A stretch of DNA of 64,000 bases, from the NCBI GenBank assembly GCA_038503075.1, contig JBCAML010000010.1, positions 1,736,001 to 1,800,000 of the forward strand. Direction: 5' to 3'. Source of the stretch: Gyromitra esculenta. Its lineage: Eukaryota; Ascomycota; Pezizomycetes; Pezizales; Discinaceae. This document shows, in pieces, positions 1,329-23,717 of this stretch; within the stretch, counting starts at the first letter, position 1, and the number at the start of each line of letters is the position of its first letter. The translations under genes were made by a program, and so were the position numbers. The notes under the pieces are model-generated. The model saw only the letters and a program-made list of their open reading frames with translations. It had not been told where the DNA came from and searched no databases.

Positions 1329-2070
1329 GTTCCAGGAGAACCATCCTTTATTTTTATTTTTTCCATTGCGCTAGAAGAGAGAAGGAAGAATTTACAGTAA
1401 TTTCGGGAGGTATAAGAGTAGTAGCAATAACGGTCAGCCGATTTGTAGCTTTATGGGTTGGTGTTCGGAATGGAATTGATTTTGCTTCCTTGATAAGTTT
1501 AGGCTCGCCATCGGCGGGCTGTTTACATATCGAGTGACCAACTATGATCATTTTGTCGGTATTCATCGGAATTCGTGAAAATATTGGACTGCGTACATTC
1601 CCTCCAATAAAAGAACTTCCGCGAGGGAAACTGCTGTCTTACAAGCTCTTACCCAAACAGCCGTTAGTTAATGCCTTCAAGTGGCTACCGTGTTATAGTC
1701 CTTAGTCGATGATTTACGAAGGTCAGCCCACCCTAAGTTACTATGAGATCCTCGAATATAATCCTGAAAATGAGATAACTCTTAGATACTATTACGTGCA
1801 AGATCACTTCATAATTTGCTATGTTAGAGAAAGAACTTCTGTGCATAAAGAACATAACTTCGTGGTCACATGACAAACCAGAATAGCTCTCGAGCTTCAA
1901 ACCAATGTCTGTTAAACAAGCTAAAGCAACAATAAATCCACGTTGAAGCCGAGGGGCTATATTATTTATACCAAAGAAATAGATAATCCGATATGCTTAG
2001 CAGTGAAAGAAAAAACTCCCGCTTAACAAAACTAGAGAACGAAAAGAGAAAAATTGGAATAATCAAAGAA
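1329..2070. other. intergenic, convergent gene ends
   Basis: AT-rich spacer between the plus-strand gene ending near 1328 (or 1537 if spliced) and the minus-strand gene ending at 2071. No RNA gene or repeat is seen. Confidence 0.5.
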
Positions 2071-4383
2071 TCACATGCTATCTACACTCCGCAAGCAAAA
2101 AATAACGTCACTGTCTAGCATGCTGTTCCTGCCAGCAATATATCTTGTTCTAGGCCTCTCTCTCCACTCCCCATCTCCCATCGCTGCATCTATCCCGGCC
2201 ATACCCTCTTCGACTTTCCCCACCTTTTGAACACCCATCTCGATATCGAGGCCAACCATGATATCACCTTCCCATTCATCAGTCTGCTCTGGGGAGGATG
2301 AGCCGGCAGAGTAGATGTCATCTCGCCAGTCATCCGGGCTGCCACCGCCGTAGGTCCCGCTGAGAATCATTTCAATTTCTTGCTCAAGGCGGGAGTCAAA
2401 CTCGCCAGATGTGTCCGATGAGTTATCGTCGTCGCCGTATTCCTCACCACCATAGAACTCGTCAACATCTAGCTCACATGATTCCCGCGGCTGGATCTGC
2501 TGGGGCTCTAGCAGTTTATTTTCCTCTCGCCCATCAAAAACCTGCTCATCCAGCTTCTCGGTATCGTCCCGTACCGGACTGAGTTGATACAACTCGTCAA
2601 CATCAACATCATGTTCTTCACGTTCCTCGTCAACATCGCTGAGTTCCTCCCCCATCTCCAAATCAAATCTAAAAGCGTCCCCCACACTACTGGCAATACT
2701 GCTCCTTGCCCCGTAATAGCTCACTAGCCTCGGGGATAATGGGTAGACTGGTGATAGGAGTCCGGAATTATTCGCCATGGTGTTATTTCTGGGCGAGAGG
2801 AAAAGTCTAGGCGGGAGTAGGGAAGGCTCCCTGTTCCTAACAGCTCCATTGGGATCCAATACCGAGGCCCGATCATCAATGCTAAACGTAATTTTGTCAC
2901 TCTGGGGAGTTTGAGGCGCTCTTGAGAGGGGAAGCATGAAGGTGTTGCTACTGTTTGTCTTCGAGTCCCGAGGAGTTCGCGCACTAGTCGGGGTTATAGT
3001 AGTGCCAGGTGTTTTCTGGGGAGGATTGGAGGATAACACTTTCCCCCAATGGAAGTTCTCGAACCACTCAATCAGCCCGTCTGTATCACCCATTTCTAGC
3101 TCAATATCGATGATCGGTGATGATTCGCTTGGCTTGGACGTTGGGCTTGGTACTGGAGTGGATAAACGAGATTGTGAGGGTGTGGGGACAGCAGGAAGTG
3201 GTAAGCGGGCATATATTTCTCTCCCTTCAGGCATTTCAGAGTCTGAGTGTGATAGAGTGGGTTTTATGTTTAAAGGTTTGACTTTTTTCCTTCTAGGCTT
3301 GTTGTTTATTGTTGCGGTCGGCGTAGGCATAACACTCTTTGTATCGGAAGCATCGCTCTTTGCATTAGCCACAGGGAAGCAACCCTCTAACTCCGCAATG
3401 AACCCCACCGGTGTCAGAGACGCTGTCAGTGATAGTGGCGGTAGCGCTCGGGCCCGTTCTCTCTGGGTCCGACTCTTCGCTGGTGTTGGCGGTGGTGGGG
3501 GTGTTCTCGGGGGTTGTGTTTGGGAATTGATGGTAATCCGCTTAGACATGGTCCTTTGTGCAAAGTGGTCTGCAGCTACTTCCACCGTGCCTCCGACAGG
3601 CGGGGAACGAGGCTTACTGCCAGAATGGATACCTAACACCGATTCGAGAACTCCAGAAGCGCGAGTTCGGTGATGCCTCTGGCCTCGACGTTTAACAGGC
3701 GATGTTGACATCCGTGTTGTCTGCGGCCTTGGGGATACTGAAACAGCGACTGATTGCGTGGTAGGTGGAGGTATAATTCGTAGATCCGTACCACGATGAG
3801 GCAAGGTGTTGTTGCCTCTAGGAGGTGGAAGTAAGGGACTACTCTCAGGGCTTGTTCGTAGCTGCGGAGGAATTGCGAGCTCTGGGATAGCTGGAGATAA
3901 AAATCGATCTCTAGCGCTCGTAGGATGTTCCTGATCTATGAAGCTCGCAGGTCGCCGCCGTTGCTGCCATGGCTCCATCATCATCCTAAATCTACTCGGC
4001 GAGGATGCAGATGTTGATGATGTACGAGTAGGTTGGCTATAATTTGCCATTGCTGATATTTCTTTAGTGGTTGGCGAGGAAATGGATTGTAGCCTCGCTT
4101 TCGAAGGCTTCCGGGTGAGTTTTACCAGCTTTTTTTCTCGTGGAAGTGAAGGAAGTGGGCCTGGGGGCGTGGGGAGGCTTTTGTCCTTGTTGAGTAAGGG
4201 AGTACGGGAATGTATTGAAGGAGAAGACGGCTGTTGTTCGTTGTGAAGACAGGCTGTGCGTTTTTCCGCAATGAAAAGTCGCATTTGTTGATCTAGATCG
4301 AAGGGACGCGAAGCAAGAACAAGATCAGGTGAGGTTCGGGAAGTTGGTGCCGGAGGCGCAAAGTTGTACTTTATGCCGGTCAT
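2071..4383 (-). CDS. Ser/Pro-rich, largely disordered protein with acidic C-terminal half
   Basis: An uninterrupted 770-residue reading frame starting with an ATG at 4383. The first 400 residues are basic and rich in Ser, Pro, Thr and Arg, with short Pro runs (PPRTPPPPPTP), which suggests an unstructured scaffold or regulatory protein. Around residues 435-455 lies a short ordered-looking segment (GLIEWFENFHWGKVL) that could be a docking helix. The last 200 residues are strongly acidic and contain two related blocks, DVDELYQLSP and DVDEFYGGEE. There is no signal peptide or membrane segment. No enzyme motif is visible and I cannot name a family. The length of the open frame in moderate-GC DNA makes it very likely to be a real gene. 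Confidence 0.75.
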   Translation of the reverse strand: MTGIKYNFAPPAPTSRTSPDLVLASRPFDLDQQMRLFIAEKRTACLHNEQQPSSPSIHSRTPLLNKDKSLPTPPGPLPSLPREKKLVKLTRKPSKARLQSISSPTTKEISAMANYSQPTRTSSTSASSPSRFRMMMEPWQQRRRPASFIDQEHPTSARDRFLSPAIPELAIPPQLRTSPESSPLLPPPRGNNTLPHRGTDLRIIPPPTTQSVAVSVSPRPQTTRMSTSPVKRRGQRHHRTRASGVLESVLGIHSGSKPRSPPVGGTVEVAADHFAQRTMSKRITINSQTQPPRTPPPPPTPAKSRTQRERARALPPLSLTASLTPVGFIAELEGCFPVANAKSDASDTKSVMPTPTATINNKPRRKKVKPLNIKPTLSHSDSEMPEGREIYARLPLPAVPTPSQSRLSTPVPSPTSKPSESSPIIDIELEMGDTDGLIEWFENFHWGKVLSSNPPQKTPGTTITPTSARTPRDSKTNSSNTFMLPLSRAPQTPQSDKITFSIDDRASVLDPNGAVRNREPSLLPPRLFLSPRNNTMANNSGLLSPVYPLSPRLVSYYGARSSIASSVGDAFRFDLEMGEELSDVDEEREEHDVDVDELYQLSPVRDDTEKLDEQVFDGREENKLLEPQQIQPRESCELDVDEFYGGEEYGDDDNSSDTSGEFDSRLEQEIEMILSGTYGGGSPDDWRDDIYSAGSSSPEQTDEWEGDIMVGLDIEMGVQKVGKVEEGMAGIDAAMGDGEWRERPRTRYIAGRNSMLDSDVIFCLRSVDSM

Positions 4384-7382
4384 TGCTGCGGACGGTGCTC
4401 TATGTTCACTGAGCTGTAAGATTGCGGTTTAGGAAATTTTGTAGGACGATCTACGCCGACAGGATAATTTCACAGAGAAATGGAAATGCAGAAGTTAAAC
4501 TAGTAGGATGAGCATGTGGTATGATCAAGGTAATAGCTCCAGGCTCGTCTGAAGAAAGGGATATCCGAAGGATTGAAAGGAGTAATGAATGGGAAGCCAA
4601 AACTAGTGACCATCTCATGGAAGCAGCAAATCCTCAACGTCAAAACAACCCAGGAAACAGGAAGGCGCACTACCTGTTGCCTTCTGCGAGAAGCACTCTA
4701 GCACAGTTACAGGGTTGTGCAACGCGGGGGTGGAGAAACTGCTTCACCTATAAGCGCTGACAGCCTGAGTTACAACTCGTGTCACCTCAAACTGGACGGT
4801 AGACAAGTATGCGAGAAGTGAATGCGATTTTACCCATTCATAAAATAGTCCCATTATCTAAATATGTGTATCAGAAGAATATTCGCAACGACGACAAAGA
4901 GTTCATCTCCTTCATATTTACAGACCGAAAACGTTGGAATTGGGAGTATATCCATCCGACACCACGAACTTGGGCCGGAAGTACGACTTACCAAGAGTAA
5001 ATTTTTCAGGGAATTCATCAACTAGCCTACTGGCCGAGTTAGGTCACTCAAGTTCGAGACGGAAAATCCTAACTATCCATTGGTAAGGTGACTTTCTTTT
5101 TCCCCAAGAGCCGCCATCGCATCGACGGTTGTTCAGGGGCAGATCTTGAATCCCAGGGTCCCTGAAACCTTCCCTAGGGTCCTAGGTCGTGACCTTCTGC
5201 TCTTGATATGAGCTCCTGTCTCTCGCTTAGTATTATTAACAACCCCACCATCCCACTTTAGGAGAAAGACAATGTTGGTGATTCAGTGCGACAGTGTGGG
5301 TATGATGACCGCAGCACCAGGTGGATGGCTATCAAGGGGGAGATGCCATCCTCGGAGAGCCACAAAGTTAAAATTCGGAGACCCAGTATCATGGAATGGG
5401 GAATACAAAACATACGGATAGTGTTGGGGTAGTACATATTAGTTACTTTACTATACAAATTCGAATCACTCCCCGCTTACCAAAACGAACCACCAGAATC
5501 CTGACACTTTCTCCAGCAAAACAACTCCTACGGCCTTCTTCTTTTGACGGCGCGGTCAAGGTAAACTGAAAATAAAATAAACCATAGACACCAATTGTAA
5601 AAGAGCGAAATGGTGGGGTTAATCTGGATTCAGTTCATATTGTGGCACAGCACCAAGCGAAACCATATTCTTCCTATACTTCTACTTTATGAAAACAGGA
5701 TAATTTCGGATACAAATCTTAGGCAAAAATACTATATATCCATAGAGATAGCCCTGAGAGTTGGGCGGTATTTCCACTTACTCCTTTGTAGGCCTCTACT
5801 AGGAAATAATCCTACCTAGAAAGCTCCAAACGTTGAATCAGAAAGAGCAACTACCAAATCCCTCTCCTAGAGAGACTTGAAACCAGCGCTCATATTTGTA
5901 TCAGATCTCCACTCTCAATATGAGCGGAACTCTAGCCGCACAAACACAATACCCTTGCTGTGATGTGTGTCTGCGTGGATCAACGGGAAGAATACACGGT
6001 GATCTCAGATTCCGGGAGAGTTATCTCCAAATTTTGTAGCGGGTGATTGCATTCCCCTAGACATGCGTTACCGACACGTTTGGATATCAGTGTGTCTGGA
6101 ACCAAATTTTCATTATAAGGCTACAAGAAGCGAGCCTTAGTCTAATGCATAGGGATTGTAGGTATATGGCTTAGATGTCTTGATTCTCAAGTTGGTTCTA
6201 GGCCTCATATCCTCTCTCTTTTGATTGCATTTGAGCTTTTGAAAAGGCAACTAATCTCTGTAATCATTAAATTCGCAGCCCAGATAGAAGCACACGAACG
6301 ATACGTATTCCCCGTCCTAAGCTTTCCCCTAGCTTTCTAAGAGTTGACCCGGACGAACATGCTTGGCCACGCTAAGCTCTCACAACTAATTTCACCCGAT
6401 ACCACCAAATTATACATGAAAGCACCAAAAATGAAGAAGGGGCTGAAATGGGCTGACAAGCCTTCGAGGATGCTCTATTCATCAGTGATTATCTATGGCG
6501 AACACTAATGTCGTCGCTATTAAACCTTCAAACATCGTCTGCCGAGCCCAATCACTTCTCAATCTACTTAATACCTGTGTAACCTGCCCCGCGCAAATCA
6601 AAACTTACCCTGCAGATGCAAAGCGCCTCGGGAAGTCTTGTGGACATTATTTGATACATACCCCGCCAAGGATTATGAATGATAATTATTTAGAAGCTCT
6701 AAATACGTGCCGGGGAAGTAAAATGGCATTGGGAGCGATTCTAGCGAACCTAGAATGGAAATTCGAAACACGAACGCCAAATAATCTACTTTCTAGAACT
6801 ATCGAAAAAAATATGTGCCTAATTTGAACATCTTATTTGGGCTAATTTAGACAAAGCAATACTAAAAGGGCTTCGAGAAAAAGCTTCGACTGTAGTTTCT
6901 GGCGCATACCACGACCGGGAAAATGCATCAGATACTCCCTGGTGCGAAGATACTTAGGCTATAGGGCAAATAAACTATTACTAATAAGGAAGCATCGAAC
7001 TAAAGCTACTAAAATATGTAACCGACGGTAGTGAATATCTCCGATGATACCCTAGCATGCCCCGATGAATCATCAATTTTGATCTCCGCTTGTTTGCCAC
7101 AGCAATCAATTATGTTTTCCAAATTTAGTACCGACATATACCTTCGTGTCAAATCCTATCAAATTCCGATTATTTCTGCAAATCTAGGTATAATATAACA
7201 ATATACATGTAATGGCGGGCTGAACATCAGGCACAAACCCTCAGAGCATCGAGGCTCAGCAGAAGATCCGTCAGGTCTGAGTCTGCGTCTCTAATGTTCC
7301 GGCACTTAAAATTCCCATCACCAAAGCACCGCTTTCTTTAGAAACCATTTTGGCCTGAGTCTTCAGTCACAGCTCCACAATG

Positions 7383-7407
7383 CATATCATAGCGAGGCTA
7401 TGATATG
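7383..7407. repeat. perfect 11-bp hairpin
   Basis: CATATCATAGC and its exact reverse complement flank a 3-nt loop (GAG). No gene lies beside it, so it is not an obvious terminator. Confidence 0.6.
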
Positions 7408-7692
7408 TAGCTTACGTTATACGCATCTTGGTTCTAGTCAACAGTGCATATATTCACTTACCCCATAAGCATATATAATTAATCCATTTTTAGACTCTAA
7501 GCATCCTAAAAAAAACATGCTTTTAATCCATATTGCTTTAATTTCTAGTCAAGGCAGTAGTTTTTTCTCCGTGTATCAGGGTTAGGGTCGCCCCAACGTC
7601 AGATCACGATGCATCACTCGATAGAGCGGCAAATCCTTATTATTGTTTGAGTGAGAATCGGATGATTATAGCAAGCAGTTACTTGATGGATT

Positions 7693-7710
7693 GATAGATA
7701 GATAGATAGA
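7693..7710. repeat. (GATA)n microsatellite
   Basis: About 4.5 uninterrupted GATA units. Confidence 0.8.
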
Positions 7711-9720
7711 AAAGAATAAAGCAAAACGAGTCTAAGAAGCGAGTCTATATATACAGTGTCACGTTGTCTAGCTTAGTCATCCTTCGCACTAGCTCTAGAT
7801 TTCTCCGGAGTCACGGAAGCACATAATCTATCACGATTCCTAGCACTCGTCCGTTCCTCTTTCAGTCTTCTGTCGCAGCTGCTCCGAAAGGAGCCCTGAA
7901 TCTATGTGTAACATCAACGACCCTCCCTAGTCGTAGAAAGTCATATGCAACTTTTTCCGACGCTTCGGATGTTTTGCCCTGGATAAAATCTCGGGTAGTT
8001 AAAGCTACCCATTACTATAGATGATCCACTCCCCCACCGCGGGGCGAAGGGTTCTATCTATCTTCGGGACTACTTTATACATACGCCGAGACTCCTGTTT
8101 CAGGTTGGATGGTGTACGGAAAACCGGGGATTCGGATGCACGGTTTTCGAAACGTGAACACTAGGACATGGCTAGCCGGGTCTTGAGATTCCAGAGTAGA
8201 ACCTATGATACTCAATTAAGTCGAGTTTAGTTAGTATTGAGTTCAATAGATGCTAATCCAGGACAGCGCTTCGGCTGATAACATGATTCTAGTCGGCAAA
8301 AGAATTTTGAACCATGGCTTTGTTTGGTCTGTATGTGCAGTCACAAAAGAGATCTGGTGCGATTGAAAAATTCCGCTATATAAGACCTGATCGTCTACTG
8401 AAACCTAAAGGGCTGTACCTTACCTCAATGATTATAGCCTTCCTTGCGCCTCAGCGATGTTCCAGTGACTGGGCGCTGTTAGCTAAAGGGATGAAGAATA
8501 GCCATCGCGAATGTTTTCGCGGGGGAGGGAAACTCAGCCTCTCGGGACTGGGATAACCGAGAATCTCGTCAGGAGAACCAATGGAAAACTCTTGTTTATC
8601 TGCCGAAGAATGTCAAAGCCATTGGATCAAGTTCGGCTGGGCGTGTGTTCGGCACGAGTTTAAATGGTCCCGCTGTGATTTCTTTGTTGCTCCTGTGTCG
8701 CAAATTGGCGGGATCAATGCCGTGGATGGAAAGATATGTCTGGGGCTAACCTCTTTTGGATGTGCTACTATTTAGTAATGTTTGGATCTTGGCGTCCTCG
8801 TACTAAATATCCGTGCTGCGTGTTATGTGCGGGACATAGGTAACGGCATTGGCTTGGCGCTTCCTAGTTCATCATCGTAGATTGTTTCCTTCTTCTTTTT
8901 CTCTTCTTTTTCATTCGTATTCAATTCAATACAAAGTTACACCGCCAGGAAAGCCTTCCAGATCGAGTTTAAGGCCTTCCCCTTTAAAATATCTATGTTT
9001 CGGCTAGAATTTCATGAGCTATGCAGAATAGCAGAAATCAATGCTCTGTTAGGAACCAGTGATCGACACTGCAGTCGACACAAGATGTCTCGGTTGCTCA
9101 CCTAAGGCCACTAACATCTAACTGGATGGATTAGTTGGAAGAGATTACTCATTATCATTCTCTAACTTACAATCTAGAGTTATCGTGGGGAGTACCCTTT
9201 CGCACTTTGCCATCATTGCGCTCGACTGCTACATTGTACCTCTAGTCCTTTTTACAAGTTTCAGTCGCCACCAGCCAAAGTTTTCAATGATAGCGCAATA
9301 GGTGAACTAGCCACTACTTACTACATGATGTTGTGTATTGGTACTAGTTCCCGAAAAATATACTAGAATCAATAAATAAGATACAGCTCCCAGCGACTCA
9401 CATGAGAATCGCGTCTTTACTGTCTATATACCAAAGTCCCTTAAGACTATTGGATTGGTATTTCGATTCGATCATTATTACTCGTTCGGAATCCAGAAAA
9501 ACTGAAGGACAAACTTTACAGGCATTAACGCTTCTCAGCTTATTCATTGAAGAAATTATACCAAAGAAATTTACACCCCCATAGATCATCCATATGCAAA
9601 CCCATTAACCCCCAGAAAAATAAACTGCATCTTCAAACTATAAAACAAGCGACGAATAACTTCGACAAAATAAATATCTCAAATAAATCAAACGTTTTCC
9701 GTTTAATAAGGTTCCTGGTT

Positions 9721-12700
9721 TCACCAAGCCACAGGAGGCTCCGCCCATGACTCTTCCCAAGCCGCGAAAGGCGTGTTCTCAGGGTTCTTGGAAGTTGTCT
9801 TCCATGATGCTGCTTTCCTCTTCGCTATATAGGTATTCCACTTGTCCATTGTATCCTCATGTTTCTTGATAGCGCTGTCTTCAAACTTCTCGCTAGCACC
9901 CCACAGCCCCCACATAAATACCATTACCAATAACAAAAGCGTAAATAGTGTATTAATTTTGCGGCTGACGGTACGCTCGGCCTCCATTTCCCGGTTCTTG
10001 TTCTCTGTCTTTAGCTTCCAGAGAGCGAATGAATCCGGAGAGTTTATATTGTTCTCTCTGCGTGCCGATGAAAATGCCCCACGACGTTGGATCTGGGTTT
10101 TAGGCTTTGTACCGTTTTGAAGGTCGTTAAATAAAAAGCTCCGTAATGCATTTATCTTATACCCAGGTAAGTTTTCCGCAGCGCCAGTAGGTTTCTCAGC
10201 AGCCGCATAGTATGCAGCAATGATTTTGTCGGTATCTGCATCTGTTTCCCGCAAGTACTCAGCCATGATCTGTTCCTCATCAACTGCGGGTGCCAAATAG
10301 TTCTCCGAAACCCATTTCATCGCCCACTCTCCCACAAGGATTTTCAGAACCCATTTAAGCATCTCTGCTTTCTGTATAGAGCGCGATCTTAAATTATAGC
10401 TCTCTCCGATGTTTCCAGGAAGCTCAGCCCTTTTTACCCTAGGGGGTGTAACTAGTAATACATCGGTTATTGCTTCCCCGTATTCATTCTCAGGTTCCCC
10501 CAGATCTCCGTCGTCAGAGTAGTCTCCCTCACCATTGCCAGGCACATAGTCGCCGTCACCTGGATCTTCTCTTTCTTCTGGTGGCTCCCAGTCATCGTCA
10601 CTATCATCATCTTTATCTTTTTTGGGTGGGCCCTTTTTGGGTGGACCCTTTTTGGGTGGACCTTTTTTAGGAGGAACTTTTTTACCTCCGTCACCATCGT
10701 CATCGTCTTCTTCTTCTTCTTCTTCTTCTTCTTCGTCTTCCTCATCTTCACTGTCCCTTTTCCCCGCCGGGCCTGGGTCTACAGCCCTCGGGCCTGTTTT
10801 TATCGCCGTCTGGAGTGGGGCTAGGGCACTCTTGGTTGGCGTCTCTGGCTCTTGTGTCGCTGGTTCTGGGCCTGCTGGGTTAACAGTTGCGCCCAAGGGG
10901 GGGAGAGGCGGATAAAGCACGCCCCCTGCGCCAGGGACTATTGGATCTGCATCCACACCTATAGATTCTTTCTATTAGTTCTTCTGTAATTGAAATATTT
11001 TCTGTGATCTTGATTACGCTCGACTATATAATGATCCATACCTTTAGTGATCACCTCGTTATCATCACGTAGAGCCGGAAGCCGTGGGTAAAATAGCTCA
11101 TCTAGAGCTTCAATGATATCAAATTGTTTCACTTCGGGAATGGATTGTTCAATGTTCGAGGTATGATCGGCGGGAGGTGCTACGGGTGGTGCGGCGGGTG
11201 GTGCGGCGGGAGGAACGACGGGAGGTGCGGCGGGAGGTGCGGCGGGAGGTGCGATGGGAGACGCGGCGAGAGGAACGACGGGAGGAACGACGGGAGGTGC
11301 AATGGGAGATGCGGCGGGAGGAACGACAGGAGGTGCGGCGGGAGGTGCAATGGGAGGAACGACGGGAGGTGCAATGGGAGGTGCGACGGGTGGTACGACG
11401 GGAGGTGCGATGGGAGGTGCGGCGGGCAGAACGACCGGTGGCGCGGCGGGTGGTGCGGCGGGTGGAACGACCGGTGGTACGATGGGGGGTGCGGCGGGTG
11501 GTGCGGCGGGTGGTGCGGCGGGAGGAATGATAGGAGGATTATCACTTCCTAGCCCTATCCCCGCACCATTAGGAGCCGCTGGTCCACCATTGGAAGGAAA
11601 CTCCGCGCTGAACAAACCAGACGGCCCACCAAGAGGTGGTAACCCGTTGAGAGGTAGCGTCCCATTTGAGAGCGTTGTCCCATTAGAAATTGGTGTCTCA
11701 TCAGGCTCTGATGCATTATCAGACTGTGACGCATCGTCAGACTGTGATTCATCATCAGACTGTGATTCATCATCTCCATTATCAATATCAGAATCCTCCA
11801 AGCTCGACAAATCCGCATCTGAGCCCAAGGCTCCATCGTCAACAGGATGTATCACTCCGTTAGTAGCATGTATCACCCCGTTAGTCACTTGTATCTCACC
11901 AGTATCTGGCGCCTCATCATCTCCGTTATCAATATCTGAATCCTCCAAGCTCGACAAATCCGCGTCTGAGCCCAAAGCTCCATCGTCATCAGGATTCGAT
12001 ATCTCGTCCTGATCTTGTGCCTCATCGTCCCCATTATCAATATCAGAATCCTCCATGCTCGAAAAATCCGAGGCTGTATCTTCGGCGTCGCCATTTCTAT
12101 CAGGCTCCACATAGAGCAATGGATCTGGCCCCAGCGGTTGGGTTGCGGGTGCGGTAACAGGAGGGGTTGCGATATATCTGTCGGGGAAGAAATGCCGTTG
12201 GCGGTTATGCCGTAGGGGGGTAGGCATGTCGTCAAGCCATGGATACGTAATAGGAGAGTCGTCGTCAATCCCAGGAAGTTTGATTCCTATAGGCTCTGGG
12301 AGGGCCATGACTCCCTCAGTGTTCAGAAACCTTCGATGAGGCCATGAAGGCGTCCCATACATAGGGTCTTCTGCTTCTAGACCATCCCTTGCCCTCACAC
12401 TATCAGCAGAGGTTGGGAGCAAATCCATCGTAGGAGGGGGACGTCGTTGGTGATTACGCCGTAGGGGGGTAGGCATGTCATCAAGCCATGGATACGTAGT
12501 AGGAGAGTCGTCGTCAATCCCAGGAAGCTTGATTCCTATAGACTCCGGGACGTTCATGACTCCCGAAGTAGTCGGAGACCATTGATGACGATGCCGTGCG
12601 GGGGTCCTAAACGTAGGACTTTCTGCTCCCGGGGTATATCTTGTTTCCGCAGAAATCGGAGACTGTTGACGATCATCTAGAGGAGGGGGCCGACCAGTCC

Positions 12701-15107
12701 CGGGAAATAGAGGTTCTGTAGCCTCTGGAGATGGAGACCGTTGACGATCAGCAGGCAACTGAGGGGGAGGAGGAGGCAAGTTCACTGTGGGCAACGTTGG
12801 CTCAGCGGCCTCCGGAGAAACCCTGGTGGACACAGGAGTTGCTGAACGTTGGCGATCGACAGGCCGCGAGGGAGGGGAGGTTGAAGTTGCCCTAGGAGTT
12901 AGACGTTCTGAAGCTGCCGAACTCTGGCGATCGACGTACCGTCGGGGAGGGGAGGTTGAAGTTGCCCTAGGAGCTAGACGTTCTGAAGCTGCTGAACTCT
13001 GGCGATCGACATACCGTGGGGGAGGGGAGGTTGAAGTTGTCCTAGGAATTAGAGGTTCTGAAGCTGCCGAACTCTGGCGATCGACGTACCGCGCGGGAGG
13101 GGAGATCGAAGCCGGCCCAGGAGTAAGACGTTGTGAAGCTGCTGAAGTTTGCCGATCGACGAACTGTGGGGGAGGGGAGGTTGAAGTTGTCCTAGGAATC
13201 AGTTGTTGTGAAACTGCTGAAGTTTGCCGATCAACAAACTGTGCGGGAGGGGAGGTCGAAGTTGCCCTAGGAATGAAATGTTGTGAAGCTGGTGAACTTT
13301 GGCGATCGACAAACCGTGGGGGAGGGGAGGTTGAAGTTGTCCTAGGGATTAGGCGTTCTGAAACAGCTGAGCTCTGGCGATCGACGTACCGTGGGGGAGG
13401 GGAGGTCGAAGTTGGCCTAGGGATTAGATCTCCTGAACCTTCTGAAGCTTGTGGGGAATCTCTCGTCTCCGCAGGAGCTTGGGGCTGTTCACCATTAGTA
13501 GTAGGCGGTGGAGGAGAAGAGGCCGGATTCGCCCCGGAATCCGTAGTCCCCGGAAGACCCCTCACGTCCCCAGGACTTCGACCACTACTTGAAGATGAAC
13601 CTAGGGAAGCTCTTGAACGCGCCGTCCCCCAATTCCAACCACCAAAAGGATTCGGAAAGACCGGTTGGGACCGCTGTCCCTCAGGAAGCACATTTCCACC
13701 ACCTAGGCCATTCAGGGGAAGACCGTTCGTGATCGCGCCAGCTAAGTTTGCTGGAGATGAGAGAGGGCGATCTTGCGGAGAGCCTCTGCGAGGGGGAGGG
13801 CTAATTGGTGCGTTTGCTGTATCATGTCCGTTAGGAAGACGTATTTCAGGCGGACTGTTACCTGTCCCCGTATCACGTACTGTAGCGCCGTTCCCGGGGG
13901 GGTCATCAGCTTGGTTCTCGGGGGTGGTGGGAGGATCCTCGTCGGCCGGTTCACTCGTTGATTTCCTCGGTGGAGGTGGGGGTGGAGGGGGCGGCGGCGG
14001 AGGGGGCGGCGGAGGGGGCGGAGGCGGAGGGGGCGGTTGAGCGCCGCCGCCGGTATTACTACCACCACCACCTCCTCCACCATCTACTCCTCCACCACCT
14101 CCACCACCTCCACCACCTCCACCACCTCCAGCATCTCCTCCACCTCCACCTCCACCTCTGCCTCCACCTCTGCCTCTACCCCCTCTCTGCGCTTCTTTCC
14201 GCGCTGTCCCCCGCCGCGGCGGGAGATCACTATCGTTATTATCACCACCGCCACCACCACCTCCTCCACGACGTCCTGGCCCTTCCTTCTGCCCTCTTGG
14301 CCGCCTCGACGTTTCCCTCAACTGGCCAAACAGGCGCCACGCAGTCCACACACCCATCCCATACGGCGACCAAATCGTCCACTTGAACCACAACCACGCA
14401 CAGAACCACTGAAACCCCCAGACCCGATCCTCCACCCACGCATACTCCGTCTCCGGCAGCAAGAACGCCACAACAACAGTCGCCAGCGCCCACTGCGCCA
14501 CAAACAGCGCTCCCACTCTCCGCATCTCACCCAGCGCGACCACAACCCCAGCATACGGCGAGGTCCACCACACGCTCCACAGCGCCGCGCCCCACACGCG
14601 CACATAGTGGTCCTGCCACGGCAGCACGAACGGCGACACAGCCAGGTATCCCGCGATCGCGTACGCCAGGCGCGGCCAGTCCACGCCGATGTCCACCGCC
14701 CGCGCGAGCACCCCGTACAGCCGCACCCGCCGCTGCAGCCACCGCCGCGCCCACCGCACCCGTCGCTGCCCGTACGGCGACTGCAGCACCACGTACACGT
14801 AGAACGTCCCCACCGTGAACCGCCACTTGGCCAGCCACCAGTTGAGCAGCGGGAAGATCGGCAGCACGGACCACCGCAGGGACAGCACCGCCGTGATGCG
14901 CCGCAGCGCTAGTGCGTAGGCGGCGAAAACTACCCATATCGGGACCACTCTGGGGATCAGCGCGCCGACGCCGTCGACGAAGATTTGGAAGCCGAGTAGT
15001 AAGGGGATGACGTTGGCGAAGAGGAGGAAAATGATGCTCTTGAATTCGCCCTTGAGGATAGATTGGGCTTCGTTGTAGATGGGGCCTAGGAATTTCGGCG
15101 GCGCCAT
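9721..15107 (-). CDS. giant repeat-rich multipass membrane protein (two exons, 1767 aa)
   Basis: Exon 1 is 15107-11042 and exon 2 is 10958-9721. The 83-nt intron (11041-10959) has donor GTATGG, branch AACTAAT and acceptor TATAG, and it restores the frame between two long open frames. Residues 1-275 are hydrophobic with about six to eight membrane segments and Trp-rich, Arg-rich loops. Then come an Arg/Gly-rich run, poly-Gly, a 25-residue poly-Pro stretch, eight tandem 25-residue units (core VDRQSS-A-S---IPR-TSTSPP), a duplicated 83-residue block containing GIKLPGIDDDSP, three acidic SSLEDSDIDNGDDE units and a long (PPAAPPVV)n tract. Exon 2 adds a Glu/Asp run, four KKGPP repeats, a soluble domain and a final membrane helix (TLFTLLLLVMVFMWGLWG). 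I know no family with this layout. A cell-surface or wall-linking role is only a guess. Confidence 0.8.
11160..11540 (-). repeat. intragenic Pro/Ala/Val codon repeat
   Basis: Degenerate 12-15-bp units (on the plus strand GGAGGTGCGGCG, GGAGGAACGACG and variants) encode alternating PPAAPP and PPVVPP. The plus strand is strongly purine-rich, and alternate frames stay open only because of the repeat. Confidence 0.85.
12205..12580 (-). repeat. intragenic duplication of an 83-residue block
   Basis: The segment near 12208-12330 recurs 249 bp further on (about 12457-12579), an exact multiple of three. Both copies encode GIKLPGIDDDSP-TYPWLDDMPTPLR. Confidence 0.8.
12851..13450 (-). repeat. 75-bp minisatellite, eight units, in the giant gene
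   Basis: The word GGCGATCGAC (or a one- to two-base variant) occurs at 12851, 12926, 13001, 13076, 13151, 13226, 13301 and 13376, exactly 75 bp apart. Each unit encodes 25 residues around VDRQSS and TSTSPP. Unit number is likely to vary between strains. Confidence 0.9.
13970..14170 (-). repeat. poly-Pro / poly-Gly coding tract, asymmetric purine-pyrimidine strand
   Basis: On the plus strand about 70 bases of GGN-type triplets (GGAGGGGGCGGC and variants) change abruptly near 14040 to CCN-type triplets (CCACCTCCACCA). On the coding strand this is poly-Gly followed by poly-Pro. Confidence 0.85.
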
Positions 15108-15782
15108 CTTGGGGAGGGAGATAGGTTTGGCTGGTTGGTTTGGCGACGAGAAATGGGGGAAGGGGAATTTGGTAAGGGTGTTTGGGGGGATTTGGGCCTG
15201 GAGGTTTATTTAAAAGTGGGAGCTGAAAGGCATTGATCTCACTGCTCTCTCTCTCTTTTTTTTGAACAAAGGTTCGAGGAGGTTAGTTAGTATAGTTTGG
15301 GCAGAAAAAAAACGAGGAAGGATGGGGAAAATTGCAATAATGTGGTTCCAGAATATGCTGTTTGACAGCGCGCTGTTTGTCCTATATTATATTATTATCA
15401 AGTCCTATACTATAATCCCATTTTGAGTTATACAAACGCCATGTCCAAACCCTCCGTTCCCACCAGAGTTAAACAAAAATCGAAAAATAAGACTCGAAAT
15501 AAAATCAGAAGGGAAATGAAATGAAAAAAAAAAAGGGATTGTTCCCCGATCAAAGGAAGGAGGGGGGGGTGGTACACCTATAGTCTTTGTTCAGTGATAA
15601 ACAAAGGGAAACAATACCCCCTCCGACAAGGGCGCCCCCCCTTACTTTACTCGTCCCTGATACAACAAGCAGAATACTTTTCGACCTCCCAGGCAACCAC
15701 ACCCGTCACAACCGGCCACACATTCTCGACCCAGTCCCACCACCCATCCGTATCCGTCTCTTCATTTTTCAACGCACAAATC
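15108..15782. other. intergenic spacer between two minus-strand genes
   Basis: Promoter side of the giant membrane-protein gene and 3' side of the next. It holds poly-A/poly-G runs at 15520-15570 and TTTAAA near 15208 (on the minus strand about 100 bp before the start codon). No further gene is seen. Confidence 0.5.
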
Positions 15783-17000
15783 CTACACTTGATCAGCCAC
15801 CACCACCCCTAACAAAGAAAAGAAAACCACAAAGAGCGATATGGTGGGTAAATACCGATATTTCGTACAGCCCCAACTCATCTCCCCCCAGATATCGTCT
15901 TTGCCAGCATCGGCTCCGGTCTTGCCCATCGATATTCGCGGCGGCAAACACACATGGTCCGTGAAGCGCCACTCGTCGGAACCAAGTGTCTGCTCGAGCC
16001 GCAGCGACGGGAACGAGAGGTTGTGCGAAGCGATGTTGAACGTGCCCGTGCTGCTAGAGGGATACAGCGCTGAGCTGTTAGTCGTGGCATTGGTATACAC
16101 CGCGTTGTAGCTACCCGCCTTTATTAGTAATGTATCCTTGTAGTTAGGCAGATGTAAAACATACCTAAACGAGCGAAGATCAAACCTCACCCCACCAACC
16201 GGCGAGGGTGTAGCTTTCACCGTCTCATTCCTTCTTCTCGCACCGCCTACCGTCCCATTCCCCCCAACAGCACCATTAGCAGTAGTATTAGTAGTGTTGG
16301 TGGTGGTAGCAGTATTAGCAGTGTTATTATAATACCCCTCCCTCCCCATCTGCACAATCCCCCAATCCTTCACATTCTTATTCTGCACCCTCTCCACCGC
16401 ACCGGCACGATACGGCGCGAACCCCAACGGCATCCGATAATCCCTGACCAAGTCCATCGAATCCACCAGGATCCCGTCCCTGTAATAGCTGACCCTGGAG
16501 GACGCGCCGAGAACGGACGAATTCCCGCCGTCGTACCCAAACCCCTGCAGCACCTCCACCTCCGCCATGAGCACGTACCCATCGCACGCATGCACATACG
16601 CCTTGCGCGCGAACGCATTGCGGAACGCCAGCGCGGACAGCAGGGCGTAGCTGCCCGCGAGCAGCAGCGCCGCCGCCGCGAGCGGGACGTGGAAGAAGCG
16701 CAGACGCGGGTGCGCCCGCGGCGTCAGTGCCTCCTTGAGGTGGCGGTACCGCGCGGACGTGGGGTGGTAGGTGCGGTACAGCGTGAACACGTTGGCGACG
16801 GAGAGCACGGCGGCGCAGGTGCAGAGCACGAGGTTGAGGATGGAGTAGTACCCCAGGCCGTGGGAGCGGAGAGCGTAGGACAGCGGGACGGAGGTCGGGT
16901 GCACGAAGGCGTGGTTCATCAGGACCATGTAGACGATGAAGGCGATGTTGAGAGGGGGGAGGGCGTACTGCAGGACCAGGAGGACGATGGCGAAGTTCAT
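15783..17000 (-). CDS. four-helix membrane protein with glycosylated extracytoplasmic domain
   Basis: A single-exon 405-residue frame starting at the ATG at 17000. Hydrophobic helices lie at about residues 3-25, 50-72, 104-125 and 382-402. The long loop between helices 3 and 4 carries many Asn-X-Ser/Thr sequons, including an Asn/Thr-rich run (NTATTTNTTNTTANG) encoded by trinucleotide repeats near 16270-16330. The loop is therefore probably outside the cytoplasm and N-glycosylated. I do not recognise the family. It follows the giant membrane-protein gene on the same strand, but the 675-bp gap argues for separate transcription. The GC-rich 5' half is typical of expressed genes here. Confidence 0.7.
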   Translation of the reverse strand: MNFAIVLLVLQYALPPLNIAFIVYMVLMNHAFVHPTSVPLSYALRSHGLGYYSILNLVLCTCAAVLSVANVFTLYRTYHPTSARYRHLKEALTPRAHPRLRFFHVPLAAAALLLAGSYALLSALAFRNAFARKAYVHACDGYVLMAEVEVLQGFGYDGGNSSVLGASSRVSYYRDGILVDSMDLVRDYRMPLGFAPYRAGAVERVQNKNVKDWGIVQMGREGYYNNTANTATTTNTTNTTANGAVGGNGTVGGARRRNETVKATPSPVGGVRFDLRSFRYVLHLPNYKDTLLIKAGSYNAVYTNATTNSSALYPSSSTGTFNIASHNLSFPSLRLEQTLGSDEWRFTDHVCLPPRISMGKTGADAGKDDIWGEMSWGCTKYRYLPTISLFVVFFSLLGVVVADQV

Positions 17001-18223
17001 TGTGGCGGTGGAGACTGGACTGTAGAGACTGGGGGGAGTCAGGGAAGTGTGTATATGGCGGGGAGGGGTGTTCGCACCTGTATTGCTCGCAACTGCTGCG
17101 GCGGTGATAGTGACGATAACGACAGCAATGGACAGAGGGACTGGCCGTGGCTGTTCGGAGGGAGAGGAGAATAGAAGGAAAGGAGGGAATCAAGGGGAAT
17201 GTCTCTCAGAGATTAGTCTGAGTCGCAGCACGTGCAGCACGGACAGGATTGGGACAGCGGCTCCGGGTGATTAGCGACAAGCGGACGGACGGTATTCAGC
17301 ACTCCAAAAGGGTCCGAGTGGCAGGAGGGAGCTGGGTGAAGGGAAGTGAAGTGAAGAGTGAAGCTCGCGATAGTGCCAGTGGGGAGTTCTCTCGCAGGCT
17401 GGTGAGGGGTTGGATGACGTTGGGGCAGCGGCTTTCCGCTTCATGGAACGTCACTCGGGCAGACGGCGGGACGAGGGCTGCCTGCCACGCCCCCCGCAGA
17501 ATATAATATACAGGTGCAGCCCAGCCCCCGACACCAAAACACACGCCCATCACCACAGTAACGCTGCAGCCCCTCACTGGCCACCGCGACGGTTAACCAC
17601 CGCCCGTTGCTGGCATCCCGGCTGCCCGGCTCCAACCGTGGCCCGCGTCGCCGGTGGAGAGTCGGGAGATCTGCCGCGTGCATATGCAGTGTGGCCATTT
17701 GTTTCGTCCCAGATGTTCCGTGGCCCGCAAACGGCCCAATCGAGCGCGCCCGAGTGATTCCCCGTGATGTGCATCTCCACATTCCAATCCCGCCCGCATG
17801 CGCACAGAGCCCCAGCAATCGCCCTGTCAACACACGCACGCGACAAAACGCCCCCCCAATGCCCGCGAATAGAGCCCACAGCACCACAGCGTGTCCCACG
17901 AACAATCCCCATCGACAATCCGGGTAGTCTCGACACTCGACACTCGACACTCGACATCGCCAGCCATCAACTACCCACAGCCCAATTCAAAACACAGCCA
18001 TAAACCGTTGATCCGAACACGAATGTCCAATCATAAACTCCCACCCAGCTACCGCTTCTCCGCTCCACCCTGATTCGCTCGCCAGATCACTTCGCTAACC
18101 TCCTCCAAACCCCATTCGCCCGTCACATCCAACGCTTTCGGCCCGATCCGTGTCTATACTGATGCATTCGCCAATCGCATCCAGCGCGCTGTCGAGCATA
18201 AACAGATGATATCACCACAAATC

Positions 18224-18236
18224 AGGGTTAGGGTTT
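18224..18236. other. interstitial telomere-like motif
   Basis: AGGGTTAGGGTTT, nearly two TTAGGG telomere units inside a chromosome arm. Confidence 0.6.
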
Positions 18237-19509
18237 CGGATGGATCATTGGCAGCAGAGGCTCGCCAGCAGGAAATCTGGATGCAACGTCGGGCGGGATG
18301 CTGAGACACACCTAGCGATAAGGTATTCCCCAGCCCTGTGTAGTAGAGATCTTGTGGGGGGTGGCTGAGGATGGATCAGCAGAGAACGGCACGTCGCACC
18401 AGTAACAGGTAGATATCCTACCGTATTAACGAACCTGCTCTCCAGCCGAGTCAGGCCGTGCTTGGGTAGAGCCTGGGCACTGTAAGGGAGAGACTGCTGC
18501 AGCTAGGCTAGGCTCTGCTCTGGCCCTTTTGATCTCTGGGTGCTGATTGGCCTGACAGTTAGTGAGGTGATGGTCTGGAAGCAGAGACAGAGCTCTGAAG
18601 TTTAAACCGCTGTTCACGTTGCTCTAGTTACGTAATACCGAACAGCCGGTATACTCTAGCACGGACTCCGATTCAAACTCAGAATACATACTTCCCCCCA
18701 GTCACCATTCATCATTCCCCACGCCCCACTGAACGATCTAGCATGTTTGCGAAGCACTGGATGGCGTATCGCAAGGCGAGCTTGAAGGATGGGGAGGTCG
18801 ATCCAAAAGTAGGCTGGGTGTGTGCGTTTATGGCTGATTTTCCGGGGTTTAGGCAGGGGTGATTTGCGTTGTGTCTGGGGATGGATGGCGGGTGTCCAGG
18901 TGTCTGAGGAGCGGGGCGCTTAGTGCCGTTGAGAATGGGAGTAAGCAGAAGAGAGAGCGTGGTGGTGATGGGCTGTTTGGGTTTGCTGTGGGTTGCTTAT
19001 TTGTGCTTGGGTTTGGGTTGTCTATATCACGTTATTTCTGGTAGAACCGTAGCCCGTGGGCCATGGGGTAGCTGGACTCGATCGTGGGTTCGCTGCTTGT
19101 AGTGGTTGGGGTTGGGGTTGGTTGCGCTCAGGGTATTGGTGTGGGCGTATTTAGTATTTCAGCGCTGATTCTCGCGACGTTATTGGTCAGCTGCTGATGC
19201 GCAATGGGCTAGAAATAGCTGATTAGCTGACGGCTTACGAACCCCCCCTCAGGCACCGCCTTTGCTTTCTTTCTGCTGCGTCGCCAGATGGTGATAGTCA
19301 CGCTAGCGCTTCACTGGCAGCTAAAAGTTAAGATGGTGTTGCAGACGAGGTTCTTTCCCTCGTTACTACAGAAGACTAGCTCTTGCTGTAAGAATACAGT
19401 CGACACGTACGGGATATCATATTCTCATAAAGTGTATATTCCTATTCACAGCATTCTTACAGCGACAATCACCCACAGCTCTCTCTCTTCTTCTTCTTCT
19501 TCTTGAATT

Positions 19510-20023
19510 CTACACCCAACGGTCGGTCATCCAGTCGAACCCCCCCCTCCCCCCGGCCGTAGAGAAGCCAGGACTCCATCCCCGCACCGACCACGAAAAG
19601 CAGAAACCAATCTCGAGCATCTCTAAGCTGAGGCCAGATAGGATTTTGTATTCAGTCCCTTCCTCTCGATTCCCCCGTAGCCGCGACTTATGTATTTGTA
19701 ATACTGTATTCGCGGGAGCCGAGCACACAAGCTGCAAGAGCAGCGCCACGACGAGCGGAGCGGCGGTAGAGGACATCAGTCGGATTCCCGCAGCGGGGTA
19801 GAGCGAAGAGTTTGTGTGGCTGGTGGGTAATGGGAGTTTGGGATAGGATATTGAGGTGGACGTCGAGCTCGTGTTGGTTGAACCGACAAGAAGGGGTATT
19901 GGTTCGCTTCCAAACGGGCTGGTGGAGAAGCGGGGTATTGTGGTTTTGGGGGAGGCTGTAATTGGTTCTTACCTTCCGTCCATTAGTATCTCTCCTGGTG
20001 GGTCTGGGGGGGGGGGCTGACAT
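19510..20023 (-). CDS. possible small two-exon gene (doubtful)
   Basis: The ATG at 20023 opens a basic, Pro-rich stretch (MSAPPPRPTRRDTNGRK) followed exactly at a codon boundary by a strong donor, GTAAGA, at 19972. A long pyrimidine-containing acceptor (CTGCTCTTGCAG) near 19732 would join it in frame to an open stretch ending at 19510, giving a product of about 90 residues with an aromatic-rich C-terminus (SLEMLEIGFCFSWSVRGW). The phases agree, but the intron would be long for this locus and I recognise nothing in the product. It could equally be chance. Confidence 0.25.
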
Positions 20024-20314
20024 TGCTGCTACGGGTTTTTGATGGTTTGGTGTTTGTTTAGTCGGCGGTAAAGGCGGTAAAGGCTGTCTACAGATGGTCG
20101 CGGTGGACTCTCTCGCCTTCCTCCTATTGAGCTTTCTTCTGGCTCCACTGAGGGCGCCGACATAGCCTTTGGAGGCTTTGAGGCTTTGAGTGTGTAGATA
20201 CTCTTTTCGCCCTGATAGCGAATTCGGTCTGTCGGAGATGCGTTGTCTCTACAACCACGGGAAATGCATCAATTAACACATTGCCCACACAAAAAATGAG
20301 GGTAAAGACACAAA

Positions 20315-20590
20315 ATGATGCCTTTCCTGGGTATGTTTGATGGAAATGCATCAGAGGGTTCATTTACTGATTCCTTTACTAACACCTTTCCCACTTATTT
20401 TTCCTTGGAAAAGGCACAAAGATGGGGAAAGCATCAGGAAAAGCATCAGGTAAAAAGGCATCAGGTAAAAAGCACTGGAAAAGGTACCAGTAATGGCACC
20501 AGTAATGGCATTGATAAAAGCATAAGGGAAAAGACATTGGTAAAGGCATTAAAAACGGAAATTTCCTGCAAAACAGAGGTTCATAGAGTG
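20315..20590. repeat. GCATCA-family degenerate tandem repeat, cluster 1
   Basis: Successive units such as GGAAAGCATCA, GGAAAAGCATCA and GGTAAAAAGGCATCA with 11-15-bp spacing, grading into GGTACCAGTAAT and GGCATTGATAA variants. The same vocabulary recurs at 20.82, 37.73, 38.40 and 38.94 kb. Confidence 0.7.
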
Positions 20591-20819
20591 GTTGATTAAT
20601 ATTGATATACATGAATAGGTAGCATAGGTGATAGGACCAGTGCCTTGATGATAAATAATCTGTGGTGGCAGGCAAAAGACTATGGGTTCGAGTCCCTCAA
20701 AGTTCATTCATTTTGGGTAGAAGTTCTCCAACCTTTAGTGTGGGAAAAGGGATGAAAAAGGGATGGCTATAAAAGCAGGCCTCTATGTACCTAGGACCGG
20801 TATTAGGGGGAAATGGGAT

Positions 20820-20935
20820 GGAAAGGCATCATATTTCCCTAACTGCACATTTACTGATGCTTTTCCTGATGCTTTTCCCACATGAATATTTGGTAGCGAA
20901 TTTGATGCATTCACTGATTCATTTCCCATCGGTGT
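20820..20935. repeat. GCATCA-family repeat, cluster 2 (mostly reverse orientation)
   Basis: Contains two perfect tandem copies of TGATGCTTTTCC at 20855-20866 and 20867-20878, plus GGAAAGGCATCA and degenerate TGATGCATTCAC and TGATTCATTTCC units. Confidence 0.75.
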
Positions 20936-22779
20936 AGATTGTGCATTTATGTTATTACTAGCCCCCCTCTCCCTGCACGATCTCTGGATCTACATGGCAG
21001 AGTAGAAATCGAACGTAGGATCAAAGTGCAAAATGCGAGGCTGGGTTCATGCAGGCTGAATTGAAATGCCAGATCGTCATATAGTATCACTCGATCAAAT
21101 CAGCAGTCTCGCGTCAAAGGAATGCGTATACACAGTGTATACAGAGTCAAGTGGTAAAGGAGACGGCGGGACGAGGAGGGGAATAGTAGAGACAATGGTA
21201 GCGGTAGTGAAAGACGAAGGTTTTAAGAGGCGAAGATGAGAAGAGTGAAAACTAAAGATGGATGAAGATCAGGATTTTAGCTTCATTATCGCTGATAGCA
21301 GAATCACGCAGCCAGTATCCCGATCATCAGTATCGCTTTTTGACTGGTTAGAACTGTAAGCTGCCACCCTAGCCTCGATCCTGTCTACACGAAAGTTGTG
21401 GTTCAGACATCAGAAACTCAAATATTCCCGTGGTACTGATAGGAACTCCGAGTTGTAGCCCGGGAAATATACCTACCCAGACAGAAAGTATATTCCATTA
21501 TATCAAGCACCAGAGATAGGACAAGTCCTTTCACCAGCGCCTCTTAACATCCGATCATCCGGGGATCTGGAACCTACGATTTCGTGGTATGTAACGTGAA
21601 AAGAACGCGAAAGTGACCATCTTCGCTCCTCCACTAGTCGCAGTTATCGCCATTTTAATATTCGCTGTATATACACGTAGTTAACACGAGTTTCGCTTGG
21701 ATATTTATCAAGCGAACTAGTGCTAGTAAGGGAAGTAAGGTTCGAAATGGACTTTACTTATCTCGATCGAACTACAACTGTAAATCTGCGGATACGAGCT
21801 AAGCTAGATTAGGCTTGGTCGGTATACAAGTTCTATCTCAGCAGACCTTAGCTAATGCGAAATAGGAACATCGTGTTATAGAACTCGATAGATATGTTAA
21901 ATCACCTTTCCTCCGATTCTGTATCTACGCCCATCTCTCCAGTCAATAAACTCCTGCCACGAGCAGACAGAAGGCCTTCGTAAATGACTTGTGTGTTTTG
22001 CCAGCTCACTAAAGCCAGCTGGCCAAACCATAAAGTCATAACCCATCACTCGCCATTGCGAAAAAAAAGCAGGGAAAACATCACAACATACCTCTCCGGC
22101 GTTTACAGATAAGAGCTATAATTCTGACAGGACTATCGGCTTTATATCCCACCGAGAAACAAGGCGGAAAACCGATTTGTGATCGCTGATATGTCTGCCC
22201 CACTGTAATACCGAGAACCAACACAGCAAACTTGTTTCTGGCGATCTCTAAAGCCCGGGAACGACGTGTCTGCCTTTTATATCATTTCCCAGCTCTCTCG
22301 TTGTCATCATCTACACTTCACGATCTATGCAGGTACAGCACCCACCCTGGATCACCCATTCTCATTGGCTTCCGATTCCACATAACCTTACATGAAACCC
22401 GTATCTCTTCAATGTAACCCCTCGATGAGATGGCTCGCAACACAAATGCACAAAAACCATTCATATATATAGCAAACCTATCGAACCCTTCCCCACCACA
22501 TGCAGTCCGTCCCCCGCATGAGGCTCTCTCGCATTCTGTGAACCCGCACCGCCATCGCAGAGGTGCAGCTGCAGCGGTCCAATCGGAGTGAAACGCGCAT
22601 CACCCAAACAAAACCGCGATTGCAATACGGGCCGCGGGCATTGCATCACACCATTATCGATATCTCACCACCTCTATCGCATACTTATACCCATACCTTT
22701 ACCCCACCTCCCTCTCAGAAGCTCCCTCTCCACTACACCCTCACAGCAGCTGCGAAGGAAGGAAGACATAAAAAAAAGG

Positions 22780-23238
22780 ATGTCGTCATCATCGTCTGCC
22801 CCACCTGAGGTCTCGTTCGCAGTCCAGACCGTACAATTGTAGCCCCCTCCCCCCTCACCTGCTGCGATAAGCTCCTGATGACAGTGCTGATTAGTTTAAA
22901 TACCACCGCCACAACCCTAATCCCGTCGTGGCTCACGTTGCTCCTCCGGTTCATCCTCCTCACAGCCGCGCTCCCGCTGTTTATCGTAGTTCTATCAGTC
23001 TACATAGTCCACGCCCTAACCGCCTGGAAAGACCAAAGCGTCGAAGTACCCCCCCCCCAATCCCCCCCTCTCCTCACCTTTCATATCCCCCCCTTGCAGC
23101 AGTTGTGCTGACAGCACCTAGATCTCCGAGGCGCCAGTGAGGTATAACCATATCCGCTGGACCTCGCTCCCGCTACTACCAAAAATGGAAGCGGTCCTGA
23201 CATGGAATTGGTACCGCGCGCCGAAGCGCAGGAAATGA
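22780..23238 (+). CDS. small single-pass membrane protein (three exons, 108 aa)
   Basis: Proposed exons are 22780-22838, 22895-23045 and 23122-23238. Intron 1 (56 nt) runs from GTAGCC to ATTAG. Intron 2 (76 nt) runs from GTACCC through a C/T-rich tract and a GCTGAC branch to CCTAG. All phases fit and give MSSSSSAPPEVSFAVQTVQ, then one strong membrane helix (about residues 33-58, LLLRFILLTAALPLFIVVLS), then a basic, Trp-rich tail ending APKRRK. The 5' side is CT-rich. I do not know the family. With a short hydrophilic N-terminus and a positively charged tail it would sit in a membrane with the tail probably cytosolic. Splice sites are inferred; the unspliced alternative (ATG 22878, 77 aa) is less satisfying. 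Confidence 0.5.
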
Positions 23239-23625: not shown

Positions 23626-23717
23626 CTCGGGGGGTAAATCGAAGTATTCGGACACCAATATGCCAAGACGCCAATATGTACCTGTCTTGGCGTCCGAATA
23701 CTTTAATTTCGTCCGAG
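23626..23717. mobile_element. very short MITE-like foldback (same family as 60.5 kb element)
   Basis: The right arm contains TTGGCGTCCGAATACTTTAA, nearly the same as TTGGCATCCGGATACTTTAA in the terminal repeat at 60841. The left arm is its inverted copy (AAGTATTCGGACACCAA) with a small indel. TA follows the right end; the left flank is TG. The whole element is about 92 bp, almost only two terminal repeats. Confidence 0.6.

Follow-up and report, generated by a model that had tools for sequence, protein, structure and literature searches.

What kind of protein is encoded by the long gene at 9721..15107 (-) of the window, i.e., the whole 64,000-nucleotide stretch of Gyromitra esculenta DNA that was analyzed, and on which side of a membrane would its repeats lie? 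The reading put forward here, tentatively and with a little less than an even chance of being right, is that of a single-copy, apparently lineage-restricted Pezizales gene whose product would be a membrane protein anchored at both ends, with a disordered linker in the cytosol acting as a tether or scaffold.

Gene model and its surroundings

When positions 15107-11042 and 10958-9721 of the minus strand are joined, they translate into 1767 residues followed by one stop, which reproduces exactly the coordinates and the one-intron, two-frame, 1767-residue model given in an earlier note on this DNA. Exon 1, at 11042..15107 (-), encodes residues 1-1355 and the first base of codon 1356, and exon 2, at 9721..10958 (-), runs from the remainder of that codon to the stop. 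This two-exon gene has a single place in its own genome: no second copy was found in the 47.1 Mb of the assembly (23 contigs), and the sole other match, with an E-value of 5.28, was taken as chance.

The likely intron, at 10959..11041 (-), was placed from sequence signals. It is 83 nt long, with a GTATGG donor, a TAG acceptor and a CTAAT branch-like motif starting 20 nt before its end, and its A+T content of 0.71 exceeds that of the adjoining 200 nt of exon on either side (0.45 and 0.37). On a simple score composed of donor, branch motif and acceptor, the donor is in the top-scoring group among the 54 frame-keeping GT-AG pairs. With the same donor, the acceptors at 10947, 10938, 10872, 10866, 10860 and 10845 equal 10959 on this score. 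Of these seven tied acceptors, 10959 lies closest to the donor, yields the shortest intron, and is preferred given first-acceptor logic and base composition. A similar intron end (...GCTAATGAGGTTGTAG) was seen by eye in the adjacent sugar-transporter gene. Translation through the intron terminates at its last codon, hence an unspliced message would yield 1382 residues.

The exon-1 frame remains open for 1416 codons, which exceeds what chance produced in 300 dinucleotide-preserving shuffles of the region (longest 411, mean of maxima 186). Given that the first ATG of the exon-2 frame does not occur before residue 1555, a separate gene starting in the front part of exon 2 is spoken against; the front half of this exon is of the same low-complexity kind as the exon-1 linker described below.

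Several other features lie in the window. The upstream neighbor on the same strand, at 15783-17000 (-), encodes a membrane protein of 405 residues, the first 125 of which contain three hydrophobic stretches. A further one lies at its C-terminal end, 9 N-x-S/T sites are present, and Pfam gives only a sub-threshold match to TraQ; this protein looks anchored at both ends too, but with a lumenal or extracellular part between them. The 770-residue frame at 2071-4383 (-) has no Pfam match and one place in the genome. Two stretches of Spa2 homology domain (PF08518, E-value 1.1e-12), a polarisome-type motif, are present in the short frame at 25993-26868 (+), and a HeLo-domain protein (PF14479, E-value 4.8e-35) whose C-terminal stretch is hydrophobic is encoded at 35818-36837 (+). 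Pfam scans of the flanks yielded nothing in all six frames of 1-9701, and nothing in the two of six frames of 15701-30698 that were scanned whole. The short repeats around GGCATCAGGWAA, at 20423-20880 and 38411-38529, may be a small mobile element: seven places in the window match with at most one mismatch, against 0.66 expected, with inverted arms at 20423-20880 (27 nt, 96% complementary, 404 nt apart) and tandem copies at 38411-38529. There are also three G-rich hexamer arrays (GGGGGA / GGAGGG), located at 42941-42971 inside an apparent sugar-transporter intron, at 48575-48620, and at 56627-56664, where the array is at the end of the subtilase frame and is perhaps intronic.

Anatomy of the encoded protein

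The N-terminal membrane domain comprises residues 1-275, at 14283..15107 (-), and was recognized from its hydrophobicity peaks. On a hydrophobicity scale that was also used for the C-terminal helix, eight peaks are present (residues 22-40, 53-71, 70-88, 95-113, 146-164, 168-186, 200-218 and 229-247), three of them strong (22-40, 53-71 and 200-218) and five weaker. Since in the N-terminus Kyte-Doolittle values exceed 1.3 only over residues 16-89 and 186-225 (a level also reached by a PPVV stretch of the linker), the eight-helix count is a working scheme; there may be up to eight membrane helices, a count that is not secure. The domain is rich in tryptophan (23 residues), has a GC3 of 0.84, and is modeled from its single sequence as all-helical at low confidence (mean pLDDT 54.2, pTM 0.25). 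Local self-alignment gave no signal of an internal repeat in the N-terminus (score 44, matched by 88 of 200 local shuffles).

The motif scan located SPY three times in the protein, at residues 110-112 (14772..14780 (-)), 183-185 (14553..14561 (-)) and 247-249 (14361..14369 (-)), closing helices 4, 6 and 8, respectively, i.e., each time an even-numbered helix of the eight-helix scheme, at what would be its cytosolic end. Three copies of this motif, which was picked post hoc, were obtained in none of 20,000 shuffles of the N-terminus with each of two block sizes. For 3-mers made up of three distinct residues other than A, L, V, R, G and W, three copies were obtained in 1 of 3000 shuffles in blocks of 25 and in 0 of 3000 whole shuffles, and for any 3-mer in 1744 and 1485 of 3000, respectively; RRV is also present three times.

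The linker, residues 276-1515, is a low-complexity stretch of 1240 residues, 83% of which are P, G, S, T, D, E, Q, N, K, R or A (G 10.6%, K 1.6%, R 6.0%, H 0.9%), with no cysteine and 4 N-x-S/T sites. It begins seven codons past codon 269, where a step in GC3 occurs, with poly-Gly (Arg-Gly) and a run of 23 prolines (residues 358-380), both within residues 276-380 (13968..14282 (-)). These are followed by eight tandem 25-residue units (residues 557-756; 12840..13439 (-)), a stretch in which a 41-residue segment occurs twice (residues 848-888 and 931-971; 12195..12566 (-)), three acidic repeats (LEDSDIDNGDDE; residues 1006-1140; 11688..12092 (-)), (PPAA/PPVV)n (residues 1191-1315; 11163..11537 (-)), an acidic run of D and E, and a KK(V/G)PP block (KKGPP; residues 1448-1469; 10618..10683 (-)).

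Residues 1516-1767 are modeled mostly at low confidence up to residue 1663, where an unbroken helix is predicted to start that extends over 80 residues, to residue 1742 (9799..10038 (-)), and in which 10-residue blocks of the single-sequence model present a mean pLDDT of 80-93 over model residues 141-210, and lower values at both ends. Included in it is the C-terminal membrane helix, residues 1690-1708 (9901..9957 (-)), which is the strongest hydrophobic peak of the whole protein and is followed by a tail of 59 residues. Its flanks of 15 residues contain 5 K/R and 3 acidic residues before the helix, and 3 K/R and 4 acidic residues after it, a weak preference for an inside-to-outside orientation. 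KASH proteins end in PPPx at the C-terminus; the C-terminus here ends in PPVAW, unlike PPPx, and a nuclear-envelope KASH reading was dropped.

The elements described in the earlier note are thus all present: hydrophobic helices lie in the N-terminus, for which several helices had been claimed, according to the peak scan and translation; poly-Gly, poly-Pro, 25-residue repeats, acidic repeats, (PPAA/PPVV)n and KKGPP were found by translation and repeat analysis; and the C-terminal helix corresponds to residues 1690-1708.

Relatives and comparable systems

Pfam returned no family for residues 1-280 at E-values up to 1, a match to the PalI/SUR7 family being absent, and none above the curated cut-off for the whole protein. 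Exon 1 had no match at all, and two sub-threshold ones, PF15017 (17.8 bits, cut-off 27) and PF02724 (11.5 bits, cut-off 34), fall over the acidic part of exon 2. When residues 1-275 were searched against 5.8 billion proteins, none matched at E-values up to 1 among 2780 candidates with lengths 0.55-1.75 of the 1355-residue query, a range that leaves out relatives under about 745 residues and split gene models. Likewise, the last 272 residues matched none at E-values up to 1 among 846 candidates with lengths 0.55-1.75 of 411, i.e., proteins of about 226-719 residues, full Lah being outside this range. The protein search is word-based and misses distant relatives. Against PDB chains, at E-values up to 10, there was one match each, a purN formyltransferase (E-value 1.1) and a DNA terminal protein (E-value 0.5), both taken as chance.

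As a control, the neighboring subtilase was searched, yielding 6682 proteins at E-values up to 1e-10 among 7994 scored. Among the best 120 of these 6682, the five top-ranked proteins present 68-79% identity, the nearest by species name are Choiromyces venosus (63%), Tuber melanosporum (62%) and Tuber magnatum (67%), and Geopyxis, Sphaerosporella, Rhizina, Tricharina, Terfezia and others appear further down. Judged by this single gene, the fungus belongs to the Pezizales, close to the Tuberaceae. Given this control indicates Pezizales proteins are present in the database, the gene under study looks lineage-restricted or fast-evolving. The claim that no known family has this layout is upheld by the Pfam and protein-database searches within the lengths covered, and no match assigning the N-terminal and exon-2 parts to separate known genes, which the earlier note had considered, was found in those searches. 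Literature searches gave nothing fitting for a described protein of comparable layout or kind, and nothing usable on the septa of Pezizales, the available portion of PMC6492006 included.

None of the systems compared here (Lah, SPA/SPP and PalI) is claimed as a family match. The layout is comparable to that of Lah, the Woronin-body leash, to which it is likened by description, with no kinship claimed. The N-terminus of Lah is not known to contain a membrane bundle. According to the available text of PMC5345055, Lah (leashin) of Aspergillus fumigatus tethers Woronin bodies, to which its N-terminus binds, exceeds 5300 residues (residues 5303-5304 were substituted in that work), and has a predicted C-terminal inside-to-outside helix that is required for septal targeting. 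The two proteins are alike in being very long and in having a C-terminal membrane helix after helical sequence, and a tether logic would be common to both. In Lah this helix is predicted to run from inside to outside, with the tail on the far side (PMC5345055, same portion); here the flanks favor such an orientation only weakly. They differ in the tail, of 219 residues in Lah (PMC5345055, as available) and 59 here, and in the N-terminus, which in Lah binds Woronin bodies, whereas residues 1-275 here look like a membrane bundle.

PalI offers a more limited likeness. Its tail is of low complexity. In the available part of PMC9021693, PalI/Rim9 (SUR7/PalI family) is described with three membrane helices, a signal peptide and a C-terminus toward the cytosol, and is thus similar only in its multi-helix N-terminus and cytosolic end. 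It differs in its three helices and signal peptide, and in that no C-terminal anchor is mentioned in that part (PMC9021693); the protein studied here, in turn, has no Pfam match.

Topology, proposed function and competing readings

In the eight-helix scheme, K and R residues are unevenly distributed over alternate loops, with 22 in the N-terminus, loops 2-3, 4-5 and 6-7 and the C-terminal flank, vs 3 in loops 1-2, 3-4, 5-6 and 7-8, a distribution that would make both the N-terminus and the linker cytosolic; this count holds for that scheme alone, and an odd number of helices would place the linker outside. Judging from charge, the linker is probably intracellular.

On this basis, an N-terminal bundle of about eight helices would be embedded in a single membrane, its two ends being cytosolic, the 1240-residue disordered, repeat-built linker would extend through the cytosol, and the C-terminal helix would traverse a membrane from inside to outside, leaving the 59-residue tail on the far side. 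Such a protein would be a long flexible tether or scaffold. It may connect two membranes, e.g., the plasma membrane with the ER or an organelle; alternatively, its linker may loop out from one membrane and collect partners via blocks that are polyproline, basic or acidic. Besides the long open frame and the charge bias, this reading is favored by the composition of the linker, by the SPY motifs at the presumed cytosolic helix ends, and by the RxxS sites, of which there are 20 against a shuffle mean of 6.6, a number reached in 0 of 1000 shuffles; 15 of the 20 fall in the 25-residue array, whose tandem copies are not independent. Against it, SH3-type motifs present no enrichment over shuffles, and the two PPxY motifs are no excess (reached by 107 of 1000 shuffles). 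The likeliest function appears to be that of a cytosolic tether or scaffold, with tethering and location suggested by the analogy with Lah.

Unlikely, yet the likeliest of the alternatives, is a membrane-anchored condensate or phospho-scaffold that tethers nothing, in which both ends would be in the same bilayer and the linker would collect partners. Consistent with it, the blocks of the linker alternate between basic (residues 557-760, net +14), acidic (residues 1001-1140, net -49) and polyproline. The RxxS array also favors this reading. Further support comes from septal SPP proteins, whose disordered, partly proline-rich regions are reported, in the available part of PMC10023807, as necessary for wound-induced accumulation at the pore. 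SPA and SPP proteins are, like the linker, disordered fungal proteins, some of them proline-rich, and the composition reported for them in that part comprises glycine antipathy, histidine bias, low lysine and high arginine (PMC10023807). The low lysine would fit the 1.6% of the linker, whose arginine is 6.0%; however, its 10.6% glycine and 0.9% histidine are unlike the low glycine and high histidine reported there.

Rather more doubtful is a mosaic or wrong gene model, in which a genuine membrane protein some 270 residues long would carry a rapidly drifting or non-essential read-on tail, or exon 2 would be a separate downstream gene. Composition and constraint are among the points in its favor. 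Within the first 600 codons, GC3 is 0.85 to codon 269 and then 0.39, a step that coincides with the end of the membrane domain; exon 2 presents 0.46. This step may mean that the linker was joined to an older domain, or merely that the two parts are constrained differently. Elsewhere in the window, the GC3 values of other frames form a high group of 0.75-0.77 (the subtilase, the Spa2-domain frame and the upstream membrane protein) and a low group of 0.46-0.47 (the ankyrin, HeLo and F-box frames and the 770-residue frame).

Protein-level constraint on the repeats is only partly supported. Synonymous changes account for 5 of the 8 distinct changes among the acidic repeats (reached in 92 of 5000 random placements), for 17 of 41 among the 25-residue units (reached in 535 of 5000, and the highest of six frames), and for 5 of 14 in the 41-residue duplicate, which gives no signal (1605 of 5000 simulations reach 5). 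Pairwise pN/pS in the claimed frame is 0.13 for the acidic repeats, with 0.18 in one antisense frame; 0.62 for the 25-residue units, the lowest value, the nearest antisense frame presenting 0.68; and 0.58 for the duplicate, which is not the lowest, as an antisense frame presents 0.56. By these values, one part supports the frame, a second is suggestive of it, and the third lends it no support. Codon-usage scoring did not identify the frame in the low-complexity parts, where the claimed frame ranks from first to sixth by region. The weak constraint outside the acidic repeats and the seven-way tie among acceptors thus favor the mosaic or wrong model, yet they are opposed by the one unbroken frame of 1416 codons, by the mostly synonymous changes of the acidic repeats, by the late first ATG and low-complexity front half of exon 2, and by the strong C-terminal membrane helix further on.

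The cell-wall span raised in the earlier note, i.e., a wall-spanning or surface protein whose extracellular linker would pass through the wall as proline/alanine- and serine/threonine-rich rods, is improbable: proline-rich and S/T-rich repeats are frequent in wall proteins and the number of N-terminal helices is uncertain, but such a role is disfavored by the 22:3 charge pattern, which in the eight-helix scheme favors a cytosolic linker, by the absence of cysteine and the presence of only 4 N-x-S/T sites in 1240 residues (the membrane protein at 15783-17000 has 9 in 405), and by the long acidic and KKGPP blocks.

Returning to the tether or scaffold with a cytosolic linker, a lineage-restricted, double-anchored and mostly disordered membrane protein is plausible. 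It is a long shot that the gene founds a class of giant cytosolic linkers, anchored at both ends and restricted to Pezizales, in which a multi-helix bundle would have acquired a C-terminal anchor and a fast-evolving linker of repeats (the GC3 step at codon 269), and which would tether a membrane assembly specific to the lineage, e.g., the septal-pore apparatus. If real, the protein would represent a second kind of giant membrane tether in fungi, anchored at both ends, and its gene would exemplify a mosaic, with a low-GC3 repeat linker borne by a membrane domain of high GC3. It would also be a concrete candidate for membrane or septal structures that are specific to the lineage in truffle relatives. 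Even if the gene is merely a drifting orphan, it would still illustrate the lengthening of membrane proteins by tandem repeats.
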